From: Rhodocyclaceae bacterium | GTDB taxonomy: Bacteria; Pseudomonadota; Gammaproteobacteria; Burkholderiales; Usitatibacteraceae | Direction: 5' to 3' | NCBI GenBank assembly: GCA_020247545.1 | Contig: JADCIX010000009.1 | Coordinates: forward strand, 1 to 43,557 | Length of the DNA stretch: 43,557 bases | In this document: positions 3,277-31,489 of the stretch, piece by piece | Layout of the letters: each line of letters starts with the position of its first letter | Numbering within the stretch: the first letter of the stretch is position 1 | Notes under the pieces: model-generated | Told to the model about the DNA's origin: nothing | What the model saw: only the letters and a program-made list of their open reading frames with translations | Database searches by the model: none | Position numbers and translations under genes: made by a program

Positions 3277-3316
3277 GGCGGCGGTTTCCAAGCGTTTTCA
3301 CTTGGAAATGCCCGCC
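3277..3316 (+). repeat. Palindromic intergenic repeat, copy A (terminator-like hairpin)
   Basis: The left arm is GGCGGCGGTTTCC at 3277-3289, and the right arm GGAAATGCCCGCC ends at 3316. The inner stem TTTCCAAG (3285-3292) pairs perfectly with CTTGGAAA (3301-3308) around an 8-base loop. The repeat starts 14 bases after the pilU stop and lies between convergent genes. Two related copies occur at 8231-8269 (plus) and 31450-31489 (minus). It may end transcription of pilU and of the lipoprotein gene, but no long T-run follows. Confidence 0.7.
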
Positions 3317-3327
3317 AGTCGGGCACC

Positions 3328-3741
3328 TTAGTAGCTGCGCTTATAGTAGCGGCCACCAACCCACACGCCGTACGGTCGTGGTACCCAGCTGCTGTAGCCC
3401 CATCCCCAATAACCACGCCCATAGAACCAAGCATCTTGCAGGGCCTCGCGGCGGCCTTGCCGTTCCGCCATCTTCAACTGGCCGTGTTGCATAAAGTCGA
3501 GCACGGCGTCAGGCACCCCGTCACGCGAGAGTTTGGCGTATTGCGACGCCGTCACATCGAACACCGTGTTGGAGTCCTGGATCGCTTTGATGATGGTCTG
3601 GTCGTCCTTGCCGTCTTTCACCAGTGAAACCAACTGCTCGAGCTGCATGGGCTCGCGTTCAGGCCCAGCTAGGCTCGCACACCCCGCCAAACCCATCGCG
3701 GCACAGACCAAAAAAACAATTCCGAGTAAACTACGCTTCAT
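3328..3741 (-). CDS. Small outer-membrane or periplasmic lipoprotein, Tyr/Gly/Trp-rich C-terminus
   Basis: A 137-residue protein starting MKRSLLGIVFLVCAAMGLAGC. The lipobox LAGC puts the acylated cysteine at residue 21, so the product is a lipoprotein. The start at 3741 is fixed by AGGAGG (3753-3748) six bases upstream; an in-frame ATG five codons further up would leave no such site. After the lipobox comes a helical region with the phrase SLVKDGKDDQTIIKAIQDS, then a C-terminal tail rich in Tyr, Trp and Gly that ends in YYKRSY. I do not recognise a named function. It is divergent from the hppD operon and convergent with pilU. Confidence 0.85.
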   Translation of the reverse strand: MKRSLLGIVFLVCAAMGLAGCASLAGPEREPMQLEQLVSLVKDGKDDQTIIKAIQDSNTVFDVTASQYAKLSRDGVPDAVLDFMQHGQLKMAERQGRREALQDAWFYGRGYWGWGYSSWVPRPYGVWVGGRYYKRSY

Positions 3742-4008
3742 GTTGCACCTCCTCAATTCATCTACAAATATCCGCTCACGCTTTCGGTCGCCCCTCTGGG
3801 TAACGGTGAAACGACGCGGGTCACACTCCGCTTAATTCTGCTCGCTCAATTGTAGCGCGGCAGAAGGTTTAGTGTCGCCTCAGTCTGTTACCAATTCCGT
3901 CTCGTTACGCCAGACGACATGCTGAGTCAGACACCTCTTGGCCGACATAGTACTGTACGGCATCATCCGCAACCACGCGGCCCTGATAAGTCAATGATGG
4001 AGAACATA

Positions 4009-5070
4009 ATGGATTTTTTTGAAAACCCGATGGGCACCGACGGCTTTGAGTTCGTCGAATATACAGCCCCCGACACCAAGGCGCTTGGTCGACTATTTGA
4101 ACAAATGGGTTTTGTGGCGGTGGCAAAACATCGTTCAAAGAACGTCTTGCTCTACAAACAGGGCGACATCCAGTTTATTGTGAATGCCGAGCTGGACAGC
4201 TTTGCGCAGTCTTTTGCAAGGGTGCATGGGCCGTCGGCATGTGCATTTGGCATCCGCGTAAAGGATGCCGCCTATGCATTCAAACGCGCCGTCGAGCTGG
4301 GCGCAAAGCCCTATGAGGGTCCGGTCGGCCCGATGGAGTTGAATATTCCCGCGCTACAGGGCATCGGCGGCTCACTGCTCTATTTGATCGACCGTTATGG
4401 CACGCGCACCATTTATGACGTCGACTTTCTACCATTGCCAGGCGTTGATCAACACCCGGTTGGCGTTGGTCTCGAATATGTTGACCATCTGACACATAAC
4501 GTCTACGTCGGTCGTATGGACACGTGGGCACAATTCTATGAAAAGCTGTTCAACTTCCGCGAAATACGTTACTTCGATATCAAAGGCAAGAAGACCGGGT
4601 TGACCTCGCGCGCACTGACCAGCCCCTGCGGCAAAATTCGTATCCCGATCAACGAGCCATCCGATCAAAAATCACAAATTCAAGAGTATCTCGACGCGTA
4701 CAACGGCGAGGGCATTCAACATATCGCACTGGCGTGCAAGGACATCTACAGCACCGTTGAAGCGCTGCGTTCTCACGGCGTGAAGTTTCTCGATACCCCC
4801 GATGCCTACTACGCGTTGGTTGATAAACGCGTCAAAAATCACGGTGAAGATTTGGAACGCTTGAAGAAAAATCGCATCCTGATCGACGGCGAGGGACTCG
4901 ACCGAGAGTCCCATGAAGACAAGTTGCTACAAATCTTCACCGAGACGGCGATTGGCCCGATTTTCTTCGAGATCATTCAGCGTAAAGGCAACGAAGGTTT
5001 TGGTGAGGGAAACTTCAAAGCCCTATTTGAAGCCATCGAGGCTGACCAAATCGCGCGCGGGGTGCTGTGA
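4009..5070 (+). CDS. hppD: 4-hydroxyphenylpyruvate dioxygenase
   Basis: Converts 4-hydroxyphenylpyruvate to homogentisate, the second step of tyrosine breakdown, using Fe(II) and O2. The 353-residue protein has two vicinal-oxygen-chelate halves. The catalytic half carries the expected iron ligands His160 (YVDHLTHN), His238 (IQHIAL) and Glu321 (FFEII), with spacing as in bacterial HPPD. I chose ATG 4009 because GGAG at 3999-4002 sits six bases upstream and the protein then begins [13 protein letters not shown], the normal family start. The open frame extends to 3919, but the extra 30 residues look non-coding. It is first gene of a four-gene operon; hmgA begins inside its stop codon. Confidence 0.97.
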
Positions 5071-6368
5071 TGGGCGCGGTAGGAACGCCAAACCGATACA
5101 TGTCTGGCTTCGGCAATGAGTTCTCCACGGAGGCGGTTGCCGGCGCGCTTCCTGTCGGACGTAACTCTCCGCAGCAGCCGGCGTTCGGCCTGTACCCCGA
5201 GCAGGTTTCGGGAAGTGCGTTTACCGTGCCACGCGACCACAATCTGCGCTCTTGGCAATATCGTTTGCGTCCATCAGCCGAACACGGCTCGTACCATCAG
5301 ATTCCAAACGGCATGATCCGCACTGCACCTTGCCATGAAGCCTCGACATCGCCTAATCGTCTGCGCTGGAATCCCATCTCTTCGCCAGCTGCGCCGACTG
5401 ATTTTGTAGACGGCCTAATGACGATTAGCACCAACGGTAGCGCGCGCAGCCAGCAGGGCATTGCCGTGCACCTGTATGCCGCCAACATCAGCATGCGTCG
5501 CTGCCTTTGCAATGCCGACGGCGAGTTGCTAATCGTGCCGCAAGACGGCGCGCTGTGTCTGAAGACGGAGTTTGGCGTGATTGATCTTGTCCCCGGCGAA
5601 ATCGCGGTGGTGCCGCGTGGCATCAAGTTTCGTGTCGAATGCGTGGTGCCCGTCCGTGGTTATGTATGCGAAAACTATGGTCAGCCGTTTCGCCTGCCGG
5701 ATCTCGGTCCGATCGGCGCGAACGGGCTCGCCAACACGCGCGACTTTCTAACGCCTACCGCGTGGTTTGAAGATATCGCAGGCGAGACCGAGGTGGTGAC
5801 CAAGTTTGGTGGCAATCTCTGGTCTTACAAAACAGCGGGGTCGCCGCTAAATGTTGTTGCGTGGCACGGTACTTACGCACCCTATAAATACGACTTGGCT
5901 AATTTCAACGCCATCAATAGCGTCTCATTCGACCACTGCGACCCGTCAATTTTCACGGTGCTGACCTCGCCATCGGAATTCGCTGGTACTGCTAACGTGG
6001 ACTTTGTGGTGTTCCCGCCGCGCTGGATCGTTGCCGTGAATACGTTTCGACCACCCTGGTTCCACCGCAACGTGATGAGTGAATACATGGGACTCATCCA
6101 CGGCAAATACGACGCCAAGGCCGCCGGCTTCTTGCCCGGTGGAGGCTCACTGCACAATTGCTTCTCGGCGCACGGCCCGGACCTGGCAACCTATCAACGC
6201 GCCAGCATTGAGGAGCTTCACCCCGTATATCAAGCTAACACCCTCGCGTTCATGTTTGAGAGCCGTTACCTGTTTGAACCCACCGCGTTTGCGATGTCCA
6301 CTCCCGCGCTCCAAGCAGACTATGATGACGCGTGGAACGGATTTGACTCTGCAAAGGTAAACCCATGA
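5070..6368 (+). CDS. hmgA: Homogentisate 1,2-dioxygenase
   Basis: Opens the aromatic ring of homogentisate to give maleylacetoacetate. The length of 432 residues is normal. The opening [15 protein letters not shown] is a strong family signature, and the iron-binding C-terminal cupin has His332 and Glu338 ([13 protein letters not shown]) and His368 (SAHGPD), corresponding to His335, Glu341 and His371 of the human enzyme. The start ATG overlaps the hppD stop by one base (TGATG), implying translational coupling. A GTG one codon upstream is possible. The stop overlaps the fahA start as ATGA. Confidence 0.97.
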
Positions 6369-7393
6369 AATTTGCCACGCTAAAGCATCCGACCAAACGC
6401 GACGGCGTTCTGCACCTTGTCGAGCAAAAACTAAGACGCGCCATTGACGTCTCCGATATTGCGCCGACACTGCAATACGCACTCGAACACTGGACAAGCC
6501 TCGAGGGGAAGTTACTCGACGAATCCGAGTCACTCGAATGCGGCACGGACCGGCCGATTATCGATTTTGCCGCCGCCCTTGAGACGGGCCAGGTTGCCGC
6601 ACCGCTGCCCCGCACGTATCAGTGGCTCGACGGGTCTGCCTATTTGTCACACGTAGAGCGGGTCCGTCGCGCGCGCGGCGACAAGGTGCCAGAAAGTTTT
6701 TTCCGTGACCCCCTGATGTATCAGGGAGGCGGCGACGCCATGATGGGCCCACGCGACAATTTGGAGTGTCTTTCCGAGGACTGGGGCATCGATCTCGAAG
6801 GTGAGGTTGGCGTCATCATTGGCGACGTCAAGATGGGCGCTTCCGCAGCAGAGGCGGCTGCGGCCGTTAGGCTAGTCGTGTTGATCAATGATGTGTCTTA
6901 CCGCAAGCTCATTCCAGGTGAGCTCGCAAAAGGGTTTGGCTTCGTCAATGGCAAGGGACTCAACGCCCTTTCACCGGTCGCCGTCACACCGGACGAACTC
7001 GGCAGCGCATGGTGTGGCCCCAAGGGTGCGGGCAAGCTCGACTATCGCCTCGTGTGCCACGTACGCGAAAAGTGGTTTGGCAATCCCAACGCGGCTGACG
7101 ACATGACGTTTTCGCTGTTCGATTTAGTCGCACACGCAGCAAAGACGCGCCCGCTGATGGCCGGCACCTTGATTGGTTCCGGTACCGTGTCTAACCATGA
7201 CATGTCCACCGGGTATGCGTGCATTATGGAAAAGCGACTGGTTGAACAAGTTGAACTCGGCGCGGCCCAAGAAGACTTCCTGCGTTTTGGTGACACGATT
7301 GAAATTGATATGTTTGATCACCACGGCGAGACAATTTTTGGTGCCATCAAAAACAAAGTCGTGTGTGCTGGCGGCACAAATGGAGTGACATAG
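6365..7393 (+). CDS. fahA: Fumarylacetoacetate hydrolase (fumarylacetoacetase)
   Basis: A 342-residue FAA-hydrolase-family protein that would hydrolyse fumarylacetoacetate to fumarate and acetoacetate, the last step of the pathway. An N-terminal domain (about 1-90) precedes the catalytic fold. The segment [12 protein letters not shown] and the later stretch [20 protein letters not shown] are metal and substrate-site regions typical of the family, and the end [17 protein letters not shown] is the usual terminal strand. The start overlaps the hmgA stop (ATGA 6365-6368) and its TAG overlaps the GTG of phhA. No maleylacetoacetate isomerase is encoded in the operon, so its substrate depends on an isomerase elsewhere or on spontaneous or glutathione-dependent isomerisation. 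Confidence 0.92.
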
Positions 7394-8226
7394 TGGCAGG
7401 CCAAACCAATCACGCGCTGCGTGGGGATTACACCAATATCCGTCCCGACTACACCGTCGATCAAGACTACCGTCGATACACGGCGGCTGAACAAGATTTG
7501 TGGAAGCGCTTGTACGCACGGCAGTCGGCGTTGGTACCACAGTTCGCTTGTGACGAATTTATTGACGTCCTGAACTCACTCGACTTCGGTCTTGGCATTC
7601 CACACTTCGGTGCCATCAACGCAAAACTCTTTCCAGCAACACGTTGGACATTGGTTGCAGTACCGGGCTTGTTGCCAGACGATGTTTTTTTTACGCATCT
7701 GGCAAATCGACGGTTTCCGGTGTCCGTTTGGCTGCGCAAGCCGGAGGAATTCGAGTACATCGTTGAGCCTGATATTTTTCACGACTTTTTCGGGCACGTG
7801 CCGTTGCTCTTTGACCCAACTTTCGCCGACTATCTTGAGGCATATGGCAAGGGCGGCGTAAAGGCGAAGGGGCTGAACGCACTTGATTATCTGGCGCGGC
7901 TTTACTGGTACACGGTCGAGTTTGGGCTCATCAACACGCCGAAGGGTTTACGCGCCTACGGCGCGGGAATTCTTTCATCAGCGGGCGAGCTACCTTATTG
8001 CATACAGAGCGCCAAGCCAAATCGGATTCGATTTGATTTGCTGCGGGTGATGCAGTCGAATTACAAAATCGACACCTTCCAGGAAACTTATTTTGTGGTC
8101 GAAAATTTCCGCGAATTATTCGACGCGACCTCGCCTGATTTCACACCTTACTATCAGGAGTTGCATCGGCGGCCAAACTTGGCGGCGGCGACTGTGCTCG
8201 ACGCGGATCAACTCATTAAAGGCTAG
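7393..8226 (+). CDS. phhA: Phenylalanine 4-monooxygenase
   Basis: Tetrahydrobiopterin-dependent hydroxylation of phenylalanine to tyrosine, feeding the operon's own pathway. The 277-residue single-domain bacterial form has iron ligands His130, His135 (FHDFFGHVPL) and Glu176 (YTVEFGL), with the same spacing as the Chromobacterium enzyme. The start is GTG 7393, overlapping the fahA stop (TAGTG), with GGAG at 7382-7385 seven bases upstream; the longer open frame from 7363 would overlap fahA by 31 bases. No pterin carbinolamine dehydratase (phhB) is present nearby. A palindromic repeat begins four bases after the stop. Confidence 0.97.
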   Translation: MAGQTNHALRGDYTNIRPDYTVDQDYRRYTAAEQDLWKRLYARQSALVPQFACDEFIDVLNSLDFGLGIPHFGAINAKLFPATRWTLVAVPGLLPDDVFFTHLANRRFPVSVWLRKPEEFEYIVEPDIFHDFFGHVPLLFDPTFADYLEAYGKGGVKAKGLNALDYLARLYWYTVEFGLINTPKGLRAYGAGILSSAGELPYCIQSAKPNRIRFDLLRVMQSNYKIDTFQETYFVVENFRELFDATSPDFTPYYQELHRRPNLAAATVLDADQLIKG

Positions 8227-8230
8227 CGTT

Positions 8231-8269
8231 GGCGGGCAGTTTCCGGCATTTTTGCTTGAAGATGTCCGC
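8231..8269 (+). repeat. Palindromic intergenic repeat, copy B
   Basis: The repeat begins GGCGGGCAGTTTCC at 8231 and ends with GATGTCCGC, pairing imperfectly around a T-rich loop (TTTTTGC at 8249-8255). It aligns with copies at 3277-3316 and 31489-31450, and weak similarity continues about ten bases further (CTGAATGGCGGG). It starts four bases after the phhA stop, between convergent transcription units. Its stem is less perfect than in copy A. Confidence 0.65.
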
Positions 8270-8338
8270 TGAATGGCGGGTTTGACTACGTTAAGACTGG
8301 TTGCCGTTATTCGACGCGCCGTGGGCTGGGAATGCAGG

Positions 8339-9625
8339 TTATTCGTAACGCAATGCGTCAATCGGTGCGAGGTTCGCCGCTTTGCTTGCGGGCAAAATGC
8401 CAAAGATCATGCCGATGAGTGCGGAAAACGCACAAGCGCCGACAACCGCCACCCAAGGTACTGCCGGATTAGGAAAATTGGGAATCATTTTGGCAATTCC
8501 AAACCCAAGGGCAAAACCCAGCACGATACCGATCAGCCCGCCGATAATGGCAAGCACGATCGCCTCGATCAAGAATTGCATCAGAATGAATTGGCGGGGC
8601 GCGCCAAGCGCCTTGGCAATGCCAATTTCCCGCGTGCGTTCAGTGACAGATACAAGCATGATGTTCATGATCCCCACGCCGCCGACCAAAAGCGAAATGC
8701 TGACGATGCCTGCCACCACCAGTGTGATGGTGGTGGAGATTTGATTGAATGATTTAGCCAACGAATCGGATGCTTCGATTTTGAAATCATCGGGCTGGTT
8801 GGGTTTGAGCTGGTGAAGTTGGCGCATCAGCGTCCGCACGCGATCTTTGGTGGATTCGATGGAATCCAAGTTCGTCACGGAAAAGGTCACCCATAGATCG
8901 GGCTTTGTAACCACCCCAGTGACGGCGAGAGCAGTTTGGTAGGGCATGAGCAAGTAGCTGTCTTGGCTGAAGCCAAAGACTTCGCCCCGCGGCTCCATGG
9001 TGCCGACTACCTTGAACCATTCATCGCCGATCTGAATGAATCGCCCTACCGGATTCTGCGGCAGCTTTAAATCCTTACGCATTTGCTCACCGAGCACGAC
9101 CACCCGTCGACGCGTCACATCGTCACTTTGGGTGAGAAAGCGGCCGTACTTCGGAAAGGCCTTTTGAACTTCCTGGTAGCTTTCCGTGGTGCCGAAGAGC
9201 TGCCCTATCGCACTATTCGCTCCATTGCGAACGCCACTCGCCCCACCATTTCCCGCGAAGACGATCGGCGTCACGTTGCTAATTCCGTCAATGCGGTATT
9301 TGAGCTGATCTAGATCGGTCGGTCGCAATCGATTGCGCTTGCCCCGCAGTTGGTCTTCAAGCGGCGTTTCTGAACGCAGCGTTAGCGTATTGCTGCCCAA
9401 GTCTTGAAATTGTTGACTAATCGATTGGGACAACCCTTGCACCAACGCCACCACACAAATCACCGATCCGACACCGATGATGATGCCGAGCATAGTCAAG
9501 AAGCTGCGCAGACCATGGGCTTGAATGCTCGCAACCGCAGAGTGCAAACATTCCTGAACCGCGTAAAAATTCGATAAGACGCGGTTGATTTCGCCGTCGT
9601 TATCGGTGGTCAATACGTCGGCCAT
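8339..9625 (-). CDS. MacB-like ABC transporter permease (FtsX/MacB_PCD type)
   Basis: A 428-residue inner-membrane permease: one N-terminal transmembrane helix near LRSFLTMLGIIIGVGSVICVV, a large periplasmic MacB core domain (about 70-300), then three C-terminal transmembrane helices in the FtsX domain, with the typical VSVTERTREIGIAKALGAPR motif between helices. The family uses mechanotransmission to drive export from the periplasm rather than transport through the membrane. I use ATG 9625; a GTG at 9631 that overlaps the ATPase stop is an alternative. It is the last gene of the yip1-adaptor-ATPase-permease operon. Unlike canonical MacB, ATPase and permease are separate proteins. Confidence 0.93.
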   Translation of the reverse strand: MADVLTTDNDGEINRVLSNFYAVQECLHSAVASIQAHGLRSFLTMLGIIIGVGSVICVVALVQGLSQSISQQFQDLGSNTLTLRSETPLEDQLRGKRNRLRPTDLDQLKYRIDGISNVTPIVFAGNGGASGVRNGANSAIGQLFGTTESYQEVQKAFPKYGRFLTQSDDVTRRRVVVLGEQMRKDLKLPQNPVGRFIQIGDEWFKVVGTMEPRGEVFGFSQDSYLLMPYQTALAVTGVVTKPDLWVTFSVTNLDSIESTKDRVRTLMRQLHQLKPNQPDDFKIEASDSLAKSFNQISTTITLVVAGIVSISLLVGGVGIMNIMLVSVTERTREIGIAKALGAPRQFILMQFLIEAIVLAIIGGLIGIVLGFALGFGIAKMIPNFPNPAVPWVAVVGACAFSALIGMIFGILPASKAANLAPIDALRYE

Positions 9626-9627
9626 TT

Positions 9628-10380
9628 TCACGCCGCCGGACTAGATGCAGTGAGTGTCGCAGCTTCATCCGCGCGCACGACAGACTGAACACCCGATACC
9701 ACGGGTGTTTGTAATCGGTCCTCTGCGATGCGACCATCATGCAGTCTGACGATGCGATGACAGTACGCGGCCACATCAGGTTCGTGTGTCACCACGACCA
9801 GCGTTAAACCATCAAGGTGTAACTCGCCGAAGAGTTCCATGATCTCCATGGCGGTTTTGCTATCAAGGTTGCCGGTGGGTTCATCGGCGAGCAGCAACTC
9901 GGGGCGGCCAACGAGTGCGCGCGCGATGGCAACACGTTGCCGCTGTCCTCCAGACAATTCATTTGGCTTGTGGTGCAGACGATGTTCAAGACCGACGCGG
10001 GTCAGCGCTTCTTGCGCACGTGCCTGTCGTTGTGCTGGCGCGACGCCGCGATAAATCAGAGGCTGCGCAACGTTGTCGAGCGCCGATGCACGTGCGCGCA
10101 AGTAGAAGTTCTGGAACACAAAGCCAATCTTGCGATTTCGCACGCGCGCTAATGCGTCCTCATCCAAACCTGCCACGGCTTCGCCGTCGAGCGTATAACG
10201 CCCAACGGTCGGCAAATCGAGGCAGCCGAGTACGTTCATGATGGTCGATTTGCCCGAGCCAGACGCGCCAGTGAGCGCGACATATTCGTTGCGCTCGATC
10301 GTCAAGTCGATATCGACCAGTGCGGGGAAGTCGTTTTCGCCAAGACGGTAGGTCTTGCCGATGCCTTCAAGCTTGATCAT
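9628..10380 (-). CDS. ABC transporter ATPase, MacB/LolD class
   Basis: A 250-residue ATPase with Walker A GASGSGKST (38-46), Q-loop near VFQNF (88-92), signature LSGGQ (142-146), Walker B LLLADEP (162-168) and the following H-loop VVTHE. The sequence is closest in type to the LolD/MacB/YvrO group that pairs with FtsX-like permeases. Its ATG overlaps the adaptor stop (ATGA, 10380-10377) and its stop abuts the permease start, so the three proteins are probably translated together. About 20 residues after the H-loop form an extended tail of unknown role. Confidence 0.94.
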   Translation of the reverse strand: MIKLEGIGKTYRLGENDFPALVDIDLTIERNEYVALTGASGSGKSTIMNVLGCLDLPTVGRYTLDGEAVAGLDEDALARVRNRKIGFVFQNFYLRARASALDNVAQPLIYRGVAPAQRQARAQEALTRVGLEHRLHHKPNELSGGQRQRVAIARALVGRPELLLADEPTGNLDSKTAMEIMELFGELHLDGLTLVVVTHEPDVAAYCHRIVRLHDGRIAEDRLQTPVVSGVQSVVRADEAATLTASSPAA

Positions 10381-11678: not shown

Positions 11679-11689
11679 CCGCATCTTTC

Positions 11690-13323: not shown

Positions 13324-13368
13324 GAAGACTCGTAAAAACATCGGAATGTACCGATCAAAATTATAACA

Positions 13369-13384
13369 GCGCACCTATGTGCGC
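13369..13384. repeat. Short perfect hairpin upstream of purB and the GST gene
   Basis: GCGCAC (13369-13374) and GTGCGC (13379-13384) form a perfect 6-bp stem around CTAT in the divergent region between the GST and purB genes. It could be an operator half-site pair or a 5' leader hairpin; nothing further can be said. Confidence 0.35.
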
Positions 13385-13505: not shown

Positions 13506-14897
<1,392 letters not shown>

Positions 14898-19670: not shown

Positions 19671-19693
19671 AGCGGAGCATGCAATCCCATTTT

Positions 19694-20185: not shown

Positions 20186-20188
20186 CGC

Positions 20189-22938: not shown

Positions 22939-22971
22939 ACTGCCAAAGTCGAGACCAAACAACGTCGTAAC

Positions 22972-23358: not shown

Positions 23359-23891
23359 AAGCGTTCACCGAGTTTTCGCCAAACAGCTTTTCCCGCGTTG
23401 TGAGCCTCGCTGCGCTTACCGCGCTCATTTGTGCCAGCCCTCTCGCCATAACAGGAGTAGCGGCGCAGGCGGCAAGTACGCCCGGCCCAGTGCAGGGGCA
23501 ATCCGGACACGCAGCGGGGTCGACTAGTCAGTCCAAACCCAAGTCGGTGGCGACCGTCCCGTGGAAACGTGTTCCGGATGCACAGAAAAAAGTCTTGGCT
23601 CCACTTGAGGCGGAGTGGCCAACGCTCCAGGGGACGCAACAACGCAAACTACTTGGCGCAGCCAAGCACTACCCAAGCTTGACCCCTGTCGAGCAGGAGC
23701 GCTTCCAAGAGCGCTTGAGGAGCTGGTCGACACTTACGCCAGAACAGCGTTCAGCTGCGCGAGATCAATTTCAGCTGCTGAGCAATCTGCCGAAGGAAAA
23801 GCAAGCCGCACTCACCTCGCGGTGGCAGCAGGAAAAACAAGCCGAAAAGGCGGCCAAGGAGTCGCCTGCCCCTGCCCCCGCCACCAAATAG
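23325..23891 (+). CDS. DUF3106-domain exported protein
   Basis: A 188-residue predicted periplasmic protein. An N-terminal hydrophobic segment (VVSLAALTALICASPLAITGVAAQA) looks like a signal peptide although preceded by 25 extra residues, so the true start could be further in (a GTG at VSLAAL). A low-complexity Gln/Ser/Lys linker is followed by the DUF3106 repeat region, where lines such as WPTLQGTQQRKLLGAAKHYPSLTPVEQERFQERLRSW recur in similar form (PEQRSAARDQFQ, PKEKQAALTSRW). The C-terminus is Pro/Ala/Lys-rich. It overlaps DUF3619 and is 6 bases from the RDD gene, so it is in the same operon. Confidence 0.85.
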   Translation: MGAGKRGGNAVKAFTEFSPNSFSRVVSLAALTALICASPLAITGVAAQAASTPGPVQGQSGHAAGSTSQSKPKSVATVPWKRVPDAQKKVLAPLEAEWPTLQGTQQRKLLGAAKHYPSLTPVEQERFQERLRSWSTLTPEQRSAARDQFQLLSNLPKEKQAALTSRWQQEKQAEKAAKESPAPAPATK

Positions 23892-23897
23892 CGCGCT

Positions 23898-24443
23898 GTG
23901 TCAGAAGCCGAAACAGTTTCGTCGCCAGACGAAGATATTCCCGCACTTCCTACAACACCCAGCATCGTGCGTCGTGTGGCGGCGATTCCATATGAGGGTC
24001 TACTGCTGCTCGCGCTCGTGTTGATCGCCAGCTTTCCGATTGCCGGACTGAATGGTCTCACCCTAACCGGGGTGGCACACATTGTTTTTCAAGCATATCT
24101 GTTGCTGGTTACAGGGATATATTTCACTTGGCAATGGCAGAAAAACGGGCAAACACTGCCCATGAAAACTTGGCGCTTTCGGGTTGTAGCGGTTGACGGC
24201 AAGCGCTTAAGTTGGCCCAGGGCCATTCTGCGTTTCACCAGCACCCTTTTCTTTTTTGGCCCCGCCTGCACTGGCGTACTGTTACTCTTTTTCCCTGATC
24301 GCGTTAGTCCCTTGATCACGATGTGGGCATTTTTTCCGCTGATGGCAACAGTGCTTTACGCGCGCTTTGATGCCCAGGGTCAGTTCCTACACGACCGTTT
24401 AGCTGGCACGCGGCTTGATAACGTCCCACCACCCCAACGCTGA
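23898..24443 (+). CDS. RDD-family membrane protein
   Basis: A 181-residue protein with an RDD domain (RRVAAIPYEGLLLLALVL, where the Arg and Asp of other family members are partly replaced: here RR...E), about four transmembrane segments and a C-terminal FDAQGQFLHDRLAGTRL that is characteristic of the family. Start is GTG 23898, six bases after the previous stop. It is last of the sigma factor cluster and ends five bases from the convergent lptG. Function of RDD proteins is not established; transport is suspected. Confidence 0.9.
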   Translation: MSEAETVSSPDEDIPALPTTPSIVRRVAAIPYEGLLLLALVLIASFPIAGLNGLTLTGVAHIVFQAYLLLVTGIYFTWQWQKNGQTLPMKTWRFRVVAVDGKRLSWPRAILRFTSTLFFFGPACTGVLLLFFPDRVSPLITMWAFFPLMATVLYARFDAQGQFLHDRLAGTRLDNVPPPQR

Positions 24444-24448
24444 ATCGG

Positions 24449-25549
24449 TTAATGCAAGAAACGTCGCGGGTACTCCTTCAGGAAAAGCAATGTGCTAGCG
24501 ACGGCCAAGAATGTAACCAGCGGCAGAGAGGCAGTCAACGAAGGCGGCCAATCATTGAGTACGGTGAGATGACCGATCATCTGGTTCAAGAAATATGCGC
24601 CGATACCCACCATGGTGCCCAATACCAGCATGGCACCAGCCCCACCCGCTCGATTCGACTGGATGGCGAATGGTATGGCGAGCAACATCATCACAATGAC
24701 GCCAATGGGTTGGAAGACCTTGTGCCACAACGCGACCTCATAACGCGTACTATTTTGTTTATTCTCACGCAGATGCTGAATATACGCGTTCAGGTTCACA
24801 ATCGACATCTCTTCAGGTTTTACCCGTAGAACCGAGAGTAAATCCGGCGTCATCGCGGAGACCCATGTCGCGCTAGGAAGCTTCGAGATCCGCGCAAATC
24901 CAGTCGAGTCAGGGCCGTCAAAGATGGTGTGCTCAACGTTGGTCAACCGCCAGCGATTCTTTTCTTCATACTGCCCACGGTCGGCTAGACGAATCGACTT
25001 CAGCCGGTACGCGGCATCAAACTCAAAAATCCGCAGGTTCATAAGTTCGGTGTCAGGCGTAACGTTCTGAATATTCACAAATGATCGGTCGTCTTTGACC
25101 CAGAACCCTGATCGAAACTGCCTCGCCACTACGTTGGTGGTTGCCGAGACACGCATTCTTTTTGCCGCCTCTTCCGCGGCAGGCGCAACCACTTCACCGA
25201 AGACAAAGATGATGGCTGAGAACAGCACACCAATCAGCGAGGCCAGAAGCGCTAACCTAGCCAGCGATAGCCCGGATGCCCGCATCACCGTCAGTTCTGA
25301 CTGCATCGAGAGGCGTGATACAGCGAACAGGGTTCCCAGTAGCGCAGCGACCGGGAACACCACTACCACGTGTGATGGTTGCGAAAGCAACACATAGGCA
25401 AAGGCGGTCATCAGGCCATATCCCCCCTTGCTGAGCGCGCCGAGTTCACGGATAAGATCGAACAGTGCAAACAGCGCCAACAAAGCAAGCAATAGAAATG
25501 CAGTGGCGAGGGCAATTTCCTTGGCGAGATAACGAAACAAGATCGACAT
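24449..25549 (-). CDS. lptG: Lipopolysaccharide export permease LptG
   Basis: A 366-residue YjgP/YjgQ-family permease of the LptB2FG complex that extracts lipopolysaccharide from the inner membrane. Six transmembrane segments flank a periplasmic beta-jellyroll domain (about 135-265). The N-terminal RYLAKEIALATAFLLLALLALFALFDLI and the phrase QSELTVMRASGLS are LptG-like. I chose ATG 25549; the frame also has TTG one codon earlier. Its usual partner lptF is not adjacent: upstream lies a small membrane protein instead, so lptF must be elsewhere. It is convergent with the RDD gene. Confidence 0.93.
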   Translation of the reverse strand: MSILFRYLAKEIALATAFLLLALLALFALFDLIRELGALSKGGYGLMTAFAYVLLSQPSHVVVVFPVAALLGTLFAVSRLSMQSELTVMRASGLSLARLALLASLIGVLFSAIIFVFGEVVAPAAEEAAKRMRVSATTNVVARQFRSGFWVKDDRSFVNIQNVTPDTELMNLRIFEFDAAYRLKSIRLADRGQYEEKNRWRLTNVEHTIFDGPDSTGFARISKLPSATWVSAMTPDLLSVLRVKPEEMSIVNLNAYIQHLRENKQNSTRYEVALWHKVFQPIGVIVMMLLAIPFAIQSNRAGGAGAMLVLGTMVGIGAYFLNQMIGHLTVLNDWPPSLTASLPLVTFLAVASTLLFLKEYPRRFLH

Positions 25550-25592
25550 CAAACGATTATCCCATCGGCAGGGTGCATGCCGCCAGCGCCCA

Positions 25593-25880
25593 CTAACCTG
25601 CGTTAATCCTAAAATAAATTAGCCCGATCACGGTCGCGACCCAAACCCAAAAAACCAAGCCAAACGCAACCAACGGCATGTGCTGATCACGCACAAATCT
25701 TGGCGACAGCAACCTCGCCAACTTCGTCGCCGGGCTCGTGATGATGCGAAGCAGGACATACACAAAGTTCTTTTCCCGGTTGATGCCTGCAAAAAGATAA
25801 ACCAGCCCTTGCCCCAGCAGGGCGAATCCCGCCACCTCGGCAAGCGCCTTCAGAATCTTAAGTAGAAATACGACATCCAT
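25593..25880 (-). CDS. Small two-helix membrane protein, unknown function
   Basis: A 95-residue protein starting MDVVFLLKILKALAEVAGFALLGQGLVYLFAG and ending in a second hydrophobic helix (FGLVFWVWVATVIGLIYF). The middle (LLRIITSPATKLARLLSPRFV) is mildly reminiscent of YggT-like proteins, too weakly to name. The frame is open from 25958 but that part overlaps a terminator, so I chose ATG 25880. It lies between the symporter terminator and lptG and shares their strand, with 43 bases before the lptG start, so may be co-transcribed with it. Confidence 0.6.
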   Translation of the reverse strand: MDVVFLLKILKALAEVAGFALLGQGLVYLFAGINREKNFVYVLLRIITSPATKLARLLSPRFVRDQHMPLVAFGLVFWVWVATVIGLIYFRINAG

Positions 25881-25915
25881 CTCATCAATCCCAACAAATT
25901 CACATCGCAACAAAG

Positions 25916-25948
25916 AAAAACCCGCGCCGCCTCTCGGCAGCGCGGGTT
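25916..25948 (-). terminator. Rho-independent terminator after the symporter operon
   Basis: On the minus strand AACCCGCGC (25948-25940) pairs with GCGCGGGTT (25927-25919) and is followed by a T-run (minus-strand T at 25920-25916). It lies 25 bases beyond the symporter stop. On the plus strand the hairpin is followed only by GTTTTAC, so it terminates best in the minus direction. Confidence 0.88.
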
Positions 25949-25972
25949 GTTTTACCAACTAGCGCGATAGGA

Positions 25973-28060
25973 TTAGCCCATCTGTCCAGCGGTATTCATC
26001 TTGTCACCCTTGATGGATGGGTAGCGTACGTGCTCAACCAGGTCCTGCACTTCTTGTGCCGGTGCCTTGGTGATCAAGCTAACAACGATCATCACCAACA
26101 GACCTACCGCCACCCCAAACACGCCGGAACCGATCGGCAAGATGTCGAACCAAAGAGGCATCTTTGGCACACCCAAATTGGTAAAGAATGGGTAGGTCCG
26201 CAGCATGTAATACATCACCGTGCCCAAGCCAGCCAACATACCGCAGATTGCCGCGATCTTGTTGGCACGTTTCCAGAATACGCCGAGTACCAGCGCTGGG
26301 AAGAATGCCGATGCCGCTAACGAGAAAGCCGCGCCAACCAAGAACAAGATATCACCGGGCTTCTGCGCTGTGACGTAAGCCGCAACGATTGCAACCACCA
26401 GCAGCAACACTTTGGATATTGTGATGCGACGAGCCGTCGTTGCATCGGGATTGATCATCTTGTAATAGACGTCGTGCGACAGCGCGTTGGCGATGGTCAG
26501 CAGCAACCCGTCGGCGGTGGACAACGCGGCAGCCAAACCGCCGGCAGCCACGAGGCCGGAAATCACATAGGGCAGACCGGCAATTTCGGGGGTTGCCAAC
26601 ACGATGATGTCCTGACCAATCACAATTTCGGCGAGTTGCACGATTCCGTCTTTGTTGATGTCGGTAATACTCAGGAGTGTTTTATCCACGGCCTGCCACG
26701 AGTTCACCCATTGCGGTAGATCGGCAAACGCCTTTCCGACCACGTTGGTATAAATGTCAAACTTCACGAGTACCGCGAGCGCAGGTGCTGAGAAGTAAAG
26801 CAAGAAGATAAAGAACAACGACCAGAACACCGAGACACGAGCTTCATGCACGGATGGTGTCGTGTAGTAGCGCATCAGGATGTGCGGCAATGCGGCCGTA
26901 CCTACCATCAGTGAGAAGACGAGAGCCAAGAAGTTATTTCGCTTCGTGTCAGAGGATTTCTGTTTGTCCTCATCGGTCTTGCCCGTACCTACAAATGGCG
27001 TTCCGTGCGGCAGCGGCGGAGCGGCACGTCCGGCTGCACCTTGTTGTCCCTTCAGCTGTCCCTCATAAGCTTTGACGTCTTTCGGGAACGCGTCGACCGC
27101 TTTCTCCGCCGCTTGGATGGCTGCGCCATCAGGCGTTGGAGCCGCTTTCAGTTCGTCAACTTTTGCCACCAACGCGGCTTTGTCGGCATTGTAAGAAGTC
27201 TCGGCTCCGGCCGTAAGCTTCTCACCGGCAGTCTTCGCGCGGTCAGCAAAAATCTTGCGGACTTCCAGTTCCTTTGGGTCAGCCGTCAGCTTCTTTTCGA
27301 CAGCGGTCACCTTTTCAAGCACGCTGCCATAGACCAGCTGCGGAATCGGGATGCCAGTCTGCTTAACCGACAACCAAACTACTGGGATCATGTAGGCAAC
27401 GATCAGGATGATGTACTGCGCCACCTGTGTCCAGGTCACGGCTTTCATGCCGCCCAGGAAGGAGCAAACCAAGATGCCCGCCAGACCAACAAATACGCCA
27501 ACGGCAAATTCCAAGCCGGTGAAGCGGCTGGTGATTAGACCTACACCGTAGATTTGTGCAACGACATACACAAACGAACAGATGATGGCGGCGATCACAC
27601 CGATGGTACGAACGAAGTTACCGCCGTACCGAGCGCCAAGGAAGTCAGGAATCGTAAACTGGCCAAACTTACGCAGGTAGGGTGCTAGGAACAGTGCCAC
27701 CAAACAGTAGCCGCCCGTCCAACCCATGATGAAGGCCAAACCGTCGAAGCCTTGTAGGTAGAGGCCACCAGCCATACCGATAAACGATGCTGCCGACATC
27801 CAGTCGGCACCCGTCGCCATCCCGTTAAACATCGCCGGGACTTTTCGCCCCGCCACGTAGTACTCGGCGACGTCCAGCGTACGGCTCATGATGCCAATAG
27901 TTGCGTACAGCAGGATGGTCGCCACCAAGAAGGCGTAACCAAGGTACGCCCGCGGCGTACCCATTTGTTCTGCGATGCCCAACAGCACGACAAAGCCGAT
28001 GAATCCGCCGGTGTAGATGGAGTAGTACTTCTTCAGTTGTTGATTAAAGGTCTGACTCAT
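25973..28060 (-). CDS. Sodium:solute symporter, VC_2705/ActP-like large subunit
   Basis: A 695-residue Na+-coupled carboxylate (probably acetate) permease with about thirteen transmembrane segments. The core helices are normal for the SSS family, including TGADWMSAASFIGMAG (83-98) and GLAAALSTADGLLLTIANALSHD (508-530). It is longer than typical ActP because of a charged Ala/Lys/Asp-rich insertion at about residues 246-375, and has an EF-hand-like loop D467-E478 (DINKDGIVQLAE). Its start overlaps the stop of the DUF4212 gene (ATGA), the arrangement of a two-subunit symporter. acs in the same region fits acetate uptake; the substrate is inferred. Confidence 0.92.
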   Translation of the reverse strand: MSQTFNQQLKKYYSIYTGGFIGFVVLLGIAEQMGTPRAYLGYAFLVATILLYATIGIMSRTLDVAEYYVAGRKVPAMFNGMATGADWMSAASFIGMAGGLYLQGFDGLAFIMGWTGGYCLVALFLAPYLRKFGQFTIPDFLGARYGGNFVRTIGVIAAIICSFVYVVAQIYGVGLITSRFTGLEFAVGVFVGLAGILVCSFLGGMKAVTWTQVAQYIILIVAYMIPVVWLSVKQTGIPIPQLVYGSVLEKVTAVEKKLTADPKELEVRKIFADRAKTAGEKLTAGAETSYNADKAALVAKVDELKAAPTPDGAAIQAAEKAVDAFPKDVKAYEGQLKGQQGAAGRAAPPLPHGTPFVGTGKTDEDKQKSSDTKRNNFLALVFSLMVGTAALPHILMRYYTTPSVHEARVSVFWSLFFIFLLYFSAPALAVLVKFDIYTNVVGKAFADLPQWVNSWQAVDKTLLSITDINKDGIVQLAEIVIGQDIIVLATPEIAGLPYVISGLVAAGGLAAALSTADGLLLTIANALSHDVYYKMINPDATTARRITISKVLLLVVAIVAAYVTAQKPGDILFLVGAAFSLAASAFFPALVLGVFWKRANKIAAICGMLAGLGTVMYYMLRTYPFFTNLGVPKMPLWFDILPIGSGVFGVAVGLLVMIVVSLITKAPAQEVQDLVEHVRYPSIKGDKMNTAGQMG

Positions 28061-28323
28061 GCCTCTTCTCCTTCATCAACACCATGCTCAATGTCGAGCT
28101 TACGCATGTAGACGGCGTAAAAGCCGATGATCAGTACGTAGACAATCAGGGAGCCTTGAGCGGCCATGTAAAAGGAAAACGGCCAGCCAAAGAAATTAAT
28201 CGTGGCAAGCTCGCGTGCAAAATACGCCATGACAAATGTCACGATGAACCAGATACTGAGTAGGAACGCTGTGATTCGCAGGTTCTTTCGCCAGTAGTCG
28301 CGATGTTGATCAGTCAACTGCAT
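28057..28323 (-). CDS. DUF4212 small subunit of the sodium symporter
   Basis: An 88-residue protein with two transmembrane helices (AFLLSIWFIVTFVMAYF and MAAQGSLIVYVLIIGFYAVYM) separated by the conserved NFFGWPFSFYM phrase. This is the DUF4212 / small-solute-transporter subunit that always accompanies VC_2705-type symporters. Its start is well supported: AGGAGG lies five bases upstream of ATG 28323. It is translationally coupled to the large subunit (ATGA). The two form one operon ending at the terminator at 25916-25948. Confidence 0.93.
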   Translation of the reverse strand: MQLTDQHRDYWRKNLRITAFLLSIWFIVTFVMAYFARELATINFFGWPFSFYMAAQGSLIVYVLIIGFYAVYMRKLDIEHGVDEGEEA

Positions 28324-28681
28324 TGAGTCCTCCTAGTTTTTTGTCAAATGATGCGTGTGCCAAAACATTTCACGCCTGCCATCGTTGGGCAGGAAAACCT
28401 TGTCATGTGAGTAATCTCACATTCGCCGCATTAGTATAGGGGGACATTCTTAGTCCGGCAATGCAAAACTGAGGATTTGCTCTAAGTTTATCTGCTGCGT
28501 CGCAACATTACTGTTGCCTCTCGCAGGCAAGTACACACGGTCTTTACTTTGATGCGGGGAACCGCCGTTAACCCGAACATTTCACCGGGCGCTTTTGGCA
28601 ACCACGGTGCCGTTCCATTGCCCGGCAGCAACGTCCTTAGAATCAGCGGGCACCCCATGAAATACTCCGGTTAGCCTCCGG
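28324..28681. other. Intergenic region upstream of the symporter genes
   Basis: This 358-base gap separates the symporter pair from the exonuclease gene on the same strand. Seen from the symporter start it contains AGGAGG, a CCTGCC/GGCAGG hairpin (about 28375-28393), then the CRP-like palindrome. No convincing gene is present. The gap means the symporter pair has its own promoter and is not simply read through from acs. Confidence 0.6.
28405..28422. promoter_or_regulatory. CRP-type palindrome upstream of the symporter operon
   Basis: ATGTGA-GTAATC-TCACAT: the half-sites TGTGA (28406-28410) and TCACA (28417-28421) with a six-base spacer match the E. coli CRP consensus exactly, and the flanking A and T extend the symmetry. 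Its centre lies about 90 bases upstream of the DUF4212 start. A CRP/Vfr-like activator of acetate uptake is a reasonable reading; no cAMP-dependent regulator itself is in the window (the DUF294 protein nearby has a cNMP-binding fold but no DNA-binding domain). Confidence 0.6.
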
Positions 28682-29422
28682 TTAGCGTCGCCGCAGCCAC
28701 TCATAGTCCTTGGCACACTCCAAAACCGCCTCGACATTGGCGACCCCTTGTTTTTCGGCAGTCGATAGCAGAATCACCAGCAACTGCGCGGTACCGAGCG
28801 CGTCGGCCGCAGCGTTGTGCCGTGCCGAGACCTCGATGCGGTATCGCTCCAGCCACCAGTCCAAGGGGTGCCCGCGCCCGACCGCCCTGGTTTTCGCTGA
28901 TCCGTGTTCTGTATCAACGAGGGCTGGTGCCAGCGCCGCAAGGTCGAGCCATACCTTCTCAACCGGGGTTCCAAGGTATTTTTTGCAGGCCCGCTCCAAC
29001 ATGATCCGGTCAAAATTAGCGTGATAGCCGACTAACGGGCTGTTGCCAACGAACTCCAAAAACGTAAGCAAGGCTTCAACCGGATCCTCCCCAGATTGTT
29101 GGTCGCGCCCGGAAATGCGATGTATCAGAATATTGTCTTGTGAGGAAATCCTGGTCTGCTTGAGCACCACCTCGTGGCTTTCCCCAAGTTGCACGTTAGT
29201 GCCAGTAACAACAACCGCCCCAATGGCGATTAACTGATCATTCCAGACATCCAATCCGGACGACTCAACGTCGGCAGCAACCCAGCGTGCTTGAGTAAGG
29301 CTGATCCCCGACAGATCGCTCGGCAAGGGAATGTTTGACTCAATCGCCCGCAACCTCGAACGCTGCAAGTCGTCTAGTGGAACGGGGTTTCCGAATAGGT
29401 GCCGCAGCCATTCCATCGCCAT
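28682..29422 (-). CDS. DEDDh 3'-5' exonuclease (DnaQ/PolC epsilon-like)
   Basis: A 246-residue exonuclease fold. The catalytic residues are visible in order: Asp and Glu in AADVESSGLD (about 49-58), Asp in GYHANFD (about 137-143) and His and Asp in ARHNAAADALGTAQ (about 200-213). The N-terminal ~45 residues before the fold are a small extra domain. It starts 15 bases after the DUF294 stop, and the pair is a recurrent arrangement near VC_2705-type symporters and acs in proteobacteria. Its substrate is unknown; it could trim RNA or DNA or act in signalling. An ATG two codons further in (29416) may be used instead. Confidence 0.9.
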   Translation of the reverse strand: MAMEWLRHLFGNPVPLDDLQRSRLRAIESNIPLPSDLSGISLTQARWVAADVESSGLDVWNDQLIAIGAVVVTGTNVQLGESHEVVLKQTRISSQDNILIHRISGRDQQSGEDPVEALLTFLEFVGNSPLVGYHANFDRIMLERACKKYLGTPVEKVWLDLAALAPALVDTEHGSAKTRAVGRGHPLDWWLERYRIEVSARHNAAADALGTAQLLVILLSTAEKQGVANVEAVLECAKDYEWLRRR

Positions 29423-29437
29423 TGGAATGTCCGCCAG

Positions 29438-31405
29438 CTATGCTTGAAAGTCCATCTCGACTCGCGCCTGAAGCTTGCGTGCTTGTCGCAGTGCCTCCTT
29501 CAGTATGCGGCGGTCAAGATCGTTGAGCGCATCAGTCCGGATGCGGTTTGCCATATGTACGTTTGGTTCGGTGTCCGGTTCTGTCTGCGCGGCGACCAAG
29601 GCGCTCCGACCCGCAATATCCGTATCCGCCGTACGCTGATTACTTCTGAGTCGCAGCAACTGCACAAAGTGGAATGAGTCTATATAGGCGCTGATCTCGT
29701 CGTCCCCAACCCGCATTTTTCGCATGGCTTGGCGAAGCCGATCGGCGGTGTTGGTTGCCGAAACTTCGTTCGCCAGCGCGAAGATTCGCGCGGCATCAAT
29801 AAATGGGCGCGTCCCAAATTTCTTGAGGTCGATAGTTCCGGGATATGCATCATCTGCATCGACAAAATCCCGGACAAGCCCCAAGGGCGGACGAACCTGC
29901 AGGGCATTTGCCGCCATCTGATACAGGAACAATTTTTGTGTCGGTGCAACCGACCGCAGCCAATCTCGCAGCTCCGTCACCAACTCGGATTTCCCATGCA
30001 AGGCACGAAAATCAAAAAAAATTGCGGCATTGAGCAACGCCGGCGAGCTGGGGGAACGCATCCACGCTTCAAACAAGTTGCGCCACTCGGATTGCGTCAG
30101 ACACCAACGCGGATTCTTGGCCATGATGTCGCCCCGGCAGAATGGGAAACCAGCTTGATCAAGCAGGCGATTTGCAACGGTGGCAAAGGCCAAAAATCCA
30201 GCACGAAGCGCCTCAATCTCTGTGCTGCCGGCCGACACGGCTGGCGCAAAAACAAGAGCGTTGTCCTGATCAGTGACCAGCGTTTGCTCCATCCGCCCTT
30301 CAGAGCCCAAGCCGATCCAACACCAGTTAATATCTGGCGGCGGGGACTCGATGGCTGCAAGTTCAATTGCTTTGCCGACAATGGCGTCATTCATGGTCGT
30401 TACAAACTGAGTAAGCTGCTCGGCGGCAACGCCCTGACCGACCAGCGCCTCTGCCATTTGGCGAACATCATCAGCCGCCTTGGCCAGCGACACTCCATCA
30501 GCGCAACGGTCAATGGATTTCGCAATCTCACCAAGCGACAGGCGCTGCATCTTAAAGAGATCGCGCTCGGAGACAAGCCCGACTAGCTGTCCCTCATCTG
30601 TCACAAGCACGTGTCGGAAGCGTCGTTCCGCCATTAACTTTGCCGCCTCAAACACTGTTGCGGTCGAGGGTAATGCAACCGGGTCAACGGTCATCACCTT
30701 AGAAATTGGCGCAGATTGGTCCACTTGTGGAAGCGCAACACGCGCCAGCACATCGCGCTCGGTAAAAATACCGCAGGGGATCGTTGATGAGTCTCCGACC
30801 ACTATCACCGAACCAATTTTGAGGCCCTGCATCATCGCCAGCACTTGGCAAATCGGGGTAGCCGCGGTGACCGTTACCGGCGAACGCTTGATTAGTGACC
30901 GCAACGGGCTCGCCATCGTTTGTGCACCCGAGACGTTTCGGCTGAATACGCTTTGTATATGTTGCCGCGACAAGTCAAGCATATGTGCGAGGCGCGCGGT
31001 CGCGAAATTCCGAAACTCAGGTGAAGCCTCCATCAATTCAGCGAAGCCAGATTCACTCAACTCATAACAGAACACATCCGTTGCGGCGGAAAACGTCAGC
31101 ACCGTGGCACGCTTGGAAATCAAGGCACCGATTGGAAACATCTCGCCCTCGACCAGCGTAAGCGGTCGTTCGCTTGAGGAGGGCGAAAGATTGACGCCCA
31201 GCACCTGGCCGCGCTGCAAAATGGAGAGCGTACTCACAACACCGTCCTCCGGAGACCTGATGACACTACCCTCGGCGAAGTAACGCAACGTCAGATTCGC
31301 CGCGAGTCGGCTAATCGCCGACTCAGTCATTTGATCAAAAGGCGCGTGTATACGCAGTTCAGCGACGGTTGCGGCGAGGATCGTGGGTGATGGTTGGACG
31401 GCCAT
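29438..31405 (-). CDS. cNMP-binding / CBS / DUF294 nucleotidyltransferase-like regulator
   Basis: A 655-residue soluble regulator built from an N-terminal cyclic-nucleotide-binding domain (about 15-135, GEMFPIGALISKRATV), paired CBS domains (about 170-290), a DUF294 nucleotidyltransferase domain with GSEGRMEQTLVTDQDNA (about 367-383) and a helical DUF294_C domain (about 480-630). The GSxGRxE...DxD pattern is shared with GlnD/GlnE-type enzymes and suggests transfer of a nucleotide onto a protein or molecule. CBS domains often sense adenine nucleotides, so it may modify acetate metabolism in response to cell energy. It is read from the strand of acs, with the repeat copy C between them. No biochemical function can be claimed. 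Confidence 0.9.
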   Translation of the reverse strand: MAVQPSPTILAATVAELRIHAPFDQMTESAISRLAANLTLRYFAEGSVIRSPEDGVVSTLSILQRGQVLGVNLSPSSSERPLTLVEGEMFPIGALISKRATVLTFSAATDVFCYELSESGFAELMEASPEFRNFATARLAHMLDLSRQHIQSVFSRNVSGAQTMASPLRSLIKRSPVTVTAATPICQVLAMMQGLKIGSVIVVGDSSTIPCGIFTERDVLARVALPQVDQSAPISKVMTVDPVALPSTATVFEAAKLMAERRFRHVLVTDEGQLVGLVSERDLFKMQRLSLGEIAKSIDRCADGVSLAKAADDVRQMAEALVGQGVAAEQLTQFVTTMNDAIVGKAIELAAIESPPPDINWCWIGLGSEGRMEQTLVTDQDNALVFAPAVSAGSTEIEALRAGFLAFATVANRLLDQAGFPFCRGDIMAKNPRWCLTQSEWRNLFEAWMRSPSSPALLNAAIFFDFRALHGKSELVTELRDWLRSVAPTQKLFLYQMAANALQVRPPLGLVRDFVDADDAYPGTIDLKKFGTRPFIDAARIFALANEVSATNTADRLRQAMRKMRVGDDEISAYIDSFHFVQLLRLRSNQRTADTDIAGRSALVAAQTEPDTEPNVHMANRIRTDALNDLDRRILKEALRQARKLQARVEMDFQA

Positions 31406-31449
31406 GCAGACTCCCGAAGGGCCAACGTCGACTGGCTAACCCCAGTATC

Positions 31450-31489
31450 GACGGGCATTTCCGAGCAAAACATACTGGAAACACCCGCC
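31450..31489 (-). repeat. Palindromic intergenic repeat, copy C
   Basis: On the minus strand it begins GGCGGGTGTTTCC at 31489 and ends GGAAATGCCCGTC at 31450, with TTTTGC in the loop. Thirteen-base arms pair almost completely. It lies 13 bases behind the acs stop, before the DUF294 start at 31405, in the same orientation relative to the preceding gene as copies at 3277 and 8231. It may attenuate readthrough from acs. Confidence 0.7.

Follow-up and report, generated by a model that had tools for sequence, protein, structure and literature searches.

The palindromic repeats that stand behind three genes of the 43,557-nucleotide window studied here (the whole stretch of DNA analysed, from contig JADCIX010000009.1 of a Rhodocyclaceae bacterium, assembly GCA_020247545.1) belong to a large dispersed family whose copies lie close behind stop codons and are used as targets by other elements, and which in these respects works like repetitive extragenic palindromes (REPs). 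We propose that this is an old REP-like family, restricted to one genus and numbering about 290 copies per genome by scaling, that its copies are constrained in their sequence, and that they probably serve as DNA landing pads for other elements. The preliminary description of the window had counted three copies of about 40 bp, with no fourth. The three are present at the coordinates it gave, yet the size was too short, as an alignment of 14 copies shows conserved outer ends, AAAC and GTTT, that define a unit of 66 bp with the consensus AAACTC..GACGGGCaTTTTCAGGCA-TTTT-TGCCTGAAAATGCCCGTC..GAGTTT. A fourth copy does exist, at 40453-40518 inside mfd, and scores 60.2 bits (E 7e-13) with a covariance model built without it.

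A profile made from 85 of the 89 copies found in a second species, Betaproteobacteria bacterium UKL13-2 (comparison genome G003, CP012157.1, 3,387,087 bases), the four copies at or next to sites orthologous to those of the window being excluded, finds four places and no more with a score above zero in the window (69.2, 63.0, 60.0 and 51.4 bits), and its best score in the reversed window is -5.6. An iterated profile detected 101 copies in 1,217,829 bases of the window's own genome, a sample of 11 contigs that includes the window and was picked mainly by length, not at random; the number per genome is scaled from this sample. UKL13-2 yielded its 89 copies in 1,200,000 bases. The lowest own-genome copy scores 20.1 bits, whereas the best score in first-order Markov simulation was 15.5 and the maxima in reversed sequence were 10.6 bits (own genome) and 10.9 bits (UKL13-2). 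Chance similarity is ruled out by the profile from the other species together with the reversed-sequence controls. A covariance search of the entire own genome, as the preliminary description had suggested, gave at least 150 matches (the best 150 of 1789 candidates, many palindromes being counted on both strands), all with E below 1e-5, and not just three copies.

Shorter patterns were less informative in the window, where single-arm matches are weak: 28 with at most 3 mismatches where 19.4 were expected (3 shuffles in 100 attain 28), and 30 against 27.8 in a second count. The exact 11-mer GGAAATGCCCG occurs 17 times in the 3,541,102 bases of the own genome and its reversed pattern not at all; the matches represent 16 sites, one palindrome being matched on both strands, and among these sites one (L015) lacks the remainder of the palindrome and two lie at the ends of mobile elements. 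As only 7 orphan half-sites of at least 18 bits were found (0 in the reversed control), solo halves are rare.

When up to 150 of the best candidates were scored per genome, all 13 genomes of the genus, the own one among them, had a match at E 1e-4 or better, as opposed to none of 18 genomes outside it, 6 of which are of the same taxonomic family. The copies are diverse, with a median pairwise identity of 0.56 (0.61 among all UKL13-2 copies), and of the 101 own-genome copies the two most alike are 83% identical. Scanning the window against Rfam gave 0 matches at gathering score, and no naming of such a palindrome family was met in the titles and abstract openings of the literature searched, a partial collection. 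The genome of UKL13-2, which was obtained from a co-culture with Aphanizomenon, is reported to be enriched for repeats, and the main text of that report is without a word beginning with "palindrom" (PMC5248499).

The proposed landing-pad role comes from the position of miniature inverted-repeat transposable elements (MITEs). The MITE of UKL13-2 measures about 122 or 134 bp, its ends are GGGAACTTCT/AGAAGTTCCC, and it is flanked by a target duplication of 4 bp, exact in 15 of 27 scored. Its loci lie within 15 bp of a palindrome in 44 of 60 cases, against 0.13 expected (at most 2 in 500 random placements), and 41 of those 44 MITEs are separated from the palindrome by 5-11 bp, on one side or the other. 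Counted from the palindromes, 38 of the 89 have a MITE and six have two, and in the own-genome sample all three MITEs are found at 8-10 bp from a palindrome. Diversity among the palindromes flanked by a MITE (median identity 0.61) equals that of all UKL13-2 copies, so the association indicates targeting and not co-amplification. As the palindrome stands alone behind acs and phhA in the window, whereas UKL13-2 has both palindrome and MITE behind these genes, the palindrome was probably there earlier. An autonomous partner of the MITE was searched for and not found.

A further mobile element, which from its end as translated and judged by eye looks IS30-like, interrupts with this one end the centre of two palindromes at contig ends (L002 1-143, C7:143; L004, C17:6316-6462). 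By eye, we also noted at L139 (own genome, C1), 6632-7148, a stretch of about 517 bp with ends of the MITE's kind, GGGAACTTC..GAAGTGCCC, a GACT duplication and a GGTCCCCGCC-type repeat array, lying about 8 bp from a palindrome. The palindromes are hot spots for other mobile elements, like the REPs described as targets of insertion sequences (IS); in that description an IS either interrupts the REP (type 1) or is located nearby (type 2), whereas here the MITE is mostly outside, at the distance given above (PMC1525189).

Sites of the family are shared between species. Mapping by flanks placed 20 of the 101 own-genome copies in the UKL13-2 sample, and at 17 of the 20 sites a copy is present in that species too; of the three sites that are empty there, two belong to weak copies. 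In the reverse direction 21 of the 89 UKL13-2 copies were placed and 21 of 21 have an own-genome partner, three of them falling at one place through flanking repeats. The nearest genome, G008, has a copy at 6 of 6 sites tested. Recent transposition was rejected, as sites are shared and the sole identical set consists of four UKL13-2 copies in a locally repeated stretch (~134-159 kb). The repeated region itself extends over about 133000-160000 of UKL13-2, and the four copies in it have shared flanks.

Among more distant members of the genus there is turnover of sites. Behind pilU, copies are found in G008, UKL13-2 and G009, and none scored in G004, G011 and G002; behind phhA, they are present in G008 and UKL13-2 and absent from G009, G004 and G011; behind acs, they are again present in G008 and UKL13-2 and absent from G004, G011 and G005. 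By eye, G002 has look-alike palindromes with a different core behind phhA and acs.

Orthologous copies share on average 51.9 of 66 bases (17 pairs), random pairs 38.3. When columns were classed as conserved or variable between copies, leaving out the pair at C16:85536 whose copies are out of register, the conserved ones proved to change more slowly between species as well: column identity was 0.86 against 0.68 in intergenic orthologues (8 pairs; 0 of 5000 permutations) and 0.96 against 0.81 in genic ones (8 pairs), to which protein selection may contribute. The two arms show no overall covariation in 91 copies (10 of the 101, below 35 bits, were excluded); pair 20-57, for example, reads AT 28 times, GT 25, AC 24 and GC 12. 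Selection on RNA structure through compensatory change was rejected, as the excess over column independence in the true register (inner 12.7, outer 6.8) is surpassed in slid registers, which reach 30.3 and 26.0. As conserved columns change more slowly and the arms do not covary, the constraint would be on the sequence more than on the pairing. Of the functions considered in the preliminary description, a site for a regulator or other protein has this sequence-level conservation and the symmetry of the element in its favour, and both would point that way.

The position of the copies relative to genes was determined with gene calls made de novo (950 genes in the own-genome sample; some small genes were missed, e.g. 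at 22-24 kb of the window). Co-directional gaps hold 41 of the 101 copies, convergent gaps 31 and divergent gaps 7, while 19 are inside genes and 3 at sample edges; the sample comprises 675 co-directional, 128 convergent and 136 divergent gene pairs, with 102,891, 30,204 and 53,057 intergenic bases, respectively. A palindrome is thus carried by 31 of 128 convergent pairs as compared to 41 of 675 co-directional ones (odds ratio 4.9, p 6e-9). Of the 72 copies in these two kinds of gap, to which the stop-distance test was confined and in which stops inside the element were counted, 47 have a stop codon no more than 15 nt away, whereas random placement within the gaps predicts 26.1 (maximum 35 in 2000 simulations). 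The excess is found also in gaps of at least 100 nt (23 of 43 copies, 4.4 expected) and in convergent gaps of 100-300 nt (8 of 11, 2.2 expected). At 15 of 71 gene ends within 40 nt of a copy the stop codon lies at least 3 nt inside the palindrome. UKL13-2 gave a similar picture, with 32 of 68 copies within 15 nt of a stop (11.6 expected; maximum 21 in 3000 simulations), an enrichment in convergent gaps (odds ratio 2.8, p 8e-4) and 13 of 89 copies inside genes. A bias to gene ends, as raised in the preliminary description, is therefore seen in both species; its statement that the repeats are not inside coding sequence describes 82 of the 101 own-genome copies and fails for the family.

This placement is what would be expected if the palindromes were RNA devices selected behind stop codons and common to convergent genes, either transcription terminators or hairpins that stabilise the 3' end. 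The predicted RNA hairpins are strong (-20.8 to -37 kcal/mol, z -2.4 to -8.2), and like intrinsic terminators they come right behind stops and are common to convergent genes. An intrinsic (Rho-independent) terminator is a GC-rich stem followed by a U-tract, whereas the palindromes are longer, conserved in sequence, present also within genes (19 of 101) and poor in T where the U-tract should be: the 8 nt past the inner stem contain 2.5 T on average, a count of 5 or higher being reached at 9 of the 65 gene-end positions, and at the outer end 7 or more T in 10 nt occur at 6 of 65. No terminator-like site was called at the three gene-end copies of the window; the mfd copy has a small one, on the opposite strand, that spans its left end. 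With the arms showing no overall excess of compensatory changes in addition, ordinary intrinsic terminators were rejected and are an unlikely identity for the family. The earlier idea of transcript-end hairpins thus holds as to position and fold and is unlikely as to ordinary intrinsic termination. A stabilising or translational device has some precedent in E. coli, where an effect on translation is reported for REPs located no more than 15 nt from a stop (PMC12306157), and yet, taking both sides together, we consider it unlikely that terminators or 3'-end stabilisers account for the family.

Alternatively, the palindromes could be purely selfish relics, with the gene-end bias reflecting no more than harmless insertion spots and the conserved columns a former requirement of transposition. 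The restriction to the genus, the low identity among copies, the sites that are often empty at greater distance within the genus and the tolerance of copies in genes, mostly in two of the three frames (11, 6 and 2 of 19), would all agree with this. Decaying debris is however not expected to keep its conserved columns better than the others between orthologues, as is seen here, and in convergent gaps of 100-300 nt, where any spot should be harmless, the copies still crowd at the stops. We therefore give little credence to a purely selfish origin of the pattern.

The 19 in-gene copies, 14 of which score above 40 bits while 5, at less than 35 bits, could be decayed copies or chance matches, encode 22-23 residues, with 11 copies in frame 1, 6 in frame 2 and 2 in frame 0. 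Ten host proteins could be typed by Pfam: an AMP-binding enzyme, a leucyl-tRNA synthetase, an amidase (GatA by structure-relative comparison), a two-domain ABC ATPase, Tex, an RNA pseudouridine synthase (RluC-like by comparison), a heavy-metal P-type ATPase, an ATP-dependent DNA ligase, a UvrD-type helicase with a nuclease domain and MutS; Mfd is the eleventh. The ABC ATPase is presumably Uup-like and the helicase RecB-like. Compared to relatives in the Protein Data Bank, GatA and the ligase each have about 12 extra residues at the site, the acyl-CoA synthetase about 11, Mfd about 9 and MutS about 4, and LeuS has none; the RluC comparison, in which the aligned part begins behind the element, is uninformative on insert size. 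As there are 0-12 extra residues and not 22, these are not clean insertions, and residues of the native protein were deleted or replaced. The element is carried by four Mfd proteins of the genus, that of G009 being 3 residues shorter, and the Mfd of G004, G005 and G011 is 7 residues shorter at the site.

Dispersed palindromes of this kind are known above all from the GTAG and CGTC superfamilies of REPs, high-copy short palindromes situated in convergent and co-directional gene gaps, as a rule no more than 20 bp from the 3' end, which can supply the stop codon and whose intragenic copies are often in genes for DNA repair, tRNA synthetases and pseudouridine synthases (PMC3733652). The family described here resembles them in copy number, gene-end placement, supply of stop codons and the classes of genes that contain it, and differs in that it is a single 66-bp palindrome with AAAC/GTTT ends, in place of 5-13-bp stems with a tag, and in that no dedicated transposase was found (PMC3733652). 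As the GTAG or CGTC tag is absent from the consensus ends of both the 101 and the 89 copies, it is not a member of these superfamilies as defined there. In the preliminary description the repeats had been compared to REPs and to enterobacterial repetitive intergenic consensus (ERIC) sequences, and it is the REP-like part that is borne out: the copies are many and dispersed, favour gene ends and are restricted to the genus.

If the palindromes were nevertheless REP dimers (REPINs) of GTAG or CGTC type, they should be mobilised by a REP-associated tyrosine transposase (RAYT). The look-up of RAYT genes, also proposed earlier, gave a divided answer: Y1_Tnp (RAYT-type) matches are present in 12 of the 13 genus genomes, whereas only 0, 1 and 0 palindromes lie within 8 kb of three UKL13-2 RAYT genes, the 3 of its 6 Y1_Tnp matches that fall in sampled stretches. 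Moreover, G006 (85% complete) is without any Y1_Tnp match and yet has 32 matches to the palindrome model. Like REPINs, the element is a symmetric, hairpin-forming, dispersed and non-autonomous unit; unlike REPINs, which are REP doublets tied to specific RAYTs, it shows no tie at the three RAYT genes, and no two own-genome copies are closer than the 83% given above (PMC3116915). Despite the described REP habits that it shares (PMC3733652), we regard mobilisation as a REPIN by a RAYT as highly improbable. Concerning the RAYT genes themselves, the own genome has three partial Y1_Tnp matches only (L018, L019 and L020, on C41, C72 and C66), one with an internal stop, and several relatives in the genus have full-length ones.

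The in-frame copies in unrelated protein genes beside intergenic copies are also reminiscent of Rickettsia palindromic elements (RPEs); compared by description, RPEs are about 150 bp long, lie in genes in nearly half of the cases and belong to another bacterial class, whereas here the element is 66 bp long, in genes in 19 of 101 cases and betaproteobacterial (PMC10969869).

We propose the following history for these REP-like landing-pad palindromes. The family would have spread by transposition in the past and would now be inherited mostly vertically between nearer species, its copies surviving where they do little harm or bring some benefit, that is, just behind stops and in protein linkers. 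The conserved sequence would act mainly as a symmetric DNA recognition site, read once by the family's own mobiliser and now by the MITE transposition machinery, and perhaps by the IS30-like element too. In transcripts, a strong hairpin behind the stop may slow ribosomes or shield the 3' end, a suggestion whose sole basis is the analogy with E. coli REPs. A bolder version is conceivable, which we put forward tentatively and would sooner doubt than assert: the palindromes may be genome-wide safe-harbour landing pads, where a factor binds the symmetric site as DNA and directs MITEs, and related elements with terminal inverted repeats, to insert behind stop codons at an almost constant distance outside the site, having so decorated 38 of the 89 UKL13-2 palindromes, while the same family is also translated as 22-residue peptides in essential proteins.

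Several observations weigh against our proposal. No mobiliser of the palindrome was found; every mappable UKL13-2 copy (21) has an own-genome partner, so that no copy was caught moving, and among the sites mapped there was no clean empty site with a dated insertion. Nor is there a target duplication at the palindromes, flanking repeats of 2-9 bp being about as frequent as expected (11 against 7.6 for 2 bp, 2 against 2.0 for 3 bp). The slower change of conserved columns was measured in no more than 16 pairs, of which 8 are genic, and the second-species copies were centred by the profile, which favours conserved columns. On the side of RNA, RNAalifold reported two-sided changes at 2 of 11 pairs in the 14-copy alignment and individual pairs have z values of up to 2.8 in the set of 91 copies; a role at the RNA level may exist as well. 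Finally, the gene calls behind the placement counts are our own and miss some small genes.

A REP-like family without a tag thus combines habits of REPs and of Rickettsia palindromic elements, keeping close to stops, supplying them and lying in frame in genes of DNA repair and translation, which suggests that such habits arise repeatedly and not from one transposase family. The near-constant spacing between MITE and palindrome makes it testable whether a protein recognises the repeats as DNA and whether they are used as harmless landing sites.

Within the window, copy 1 begins 1 nt past the pilU stop codon and its right end shares 2 nt with the end of a convergent open reading frame (ORF) at 3328-3756 (-). 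The stop codon of phhA (TAG, 8224-8226) is supplied by the left end of copy 2, and copy 3, which has the RNA fold of -37 kcal/mol (z -8.2), directly adjoins the acs stop codon (TAG, 31505-31503). The gaps of 14, 4 and 13 bases to the stops of pilU, phhA and acs given in the preliminary description were confirmed. These gene names are those of that description; Pfam gives domain families, and the types agree (secretion ATPase, aromatic amino acid hydroxylase and acetyl-CoA synthetase).

Table 1. Palindromes, associated genes and MITE loci. Coordinates refer to the window unless another source is named; the other-species profile is that of UKL13-2.
Feature	Coordinates	Strand	Evidence
Palindrome copy 1	3264..3329	+	58.3 bits, copy included in the model; 51.4 bits with other-species profile
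Palindrome copy 2	8218..8283	+	67.1 bits, copy included in the model; 60.0 bits with other-species profile
Palindrome copy 3	31437..31502	-	72.2 bits, copy included in the model; 63.0 bits with other-species profile
Palindrome copy 4, in frame in mfd (D3 domain)	40453..40518	+	69.2 bits with other-species profile
pilU-like ATPase gene, upstream of copy 1	2123..3262	+	PF00437 (type II/IV secretion ATPase)
phhA-like biopterin-dependent hydroxylase gene, ends in copy 2	7363..8226	+	PF00351; de novo gene call starts 7393
acs (acetyl-CoA synthetase) gene, upstream of copy 3	31503..33488	-	PF16177, PF00501, PF13193
mfd gene, contains copy 4 in frame	39230..42718	+	Pfam TRCF, MFD_D3; de novo gene call starts 39308
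MITE loci	UKL13-2 2929373-2929495 and 59 others in L237-L296; own genome C16:74447, C16:75746, C3:28057

A second repeat family is present in the window at 28594-28676, upstream of an ORF at 28682-29422; it matches weakly at 7 more places in the own-genome sample and at 23 in that of UKL13-2.

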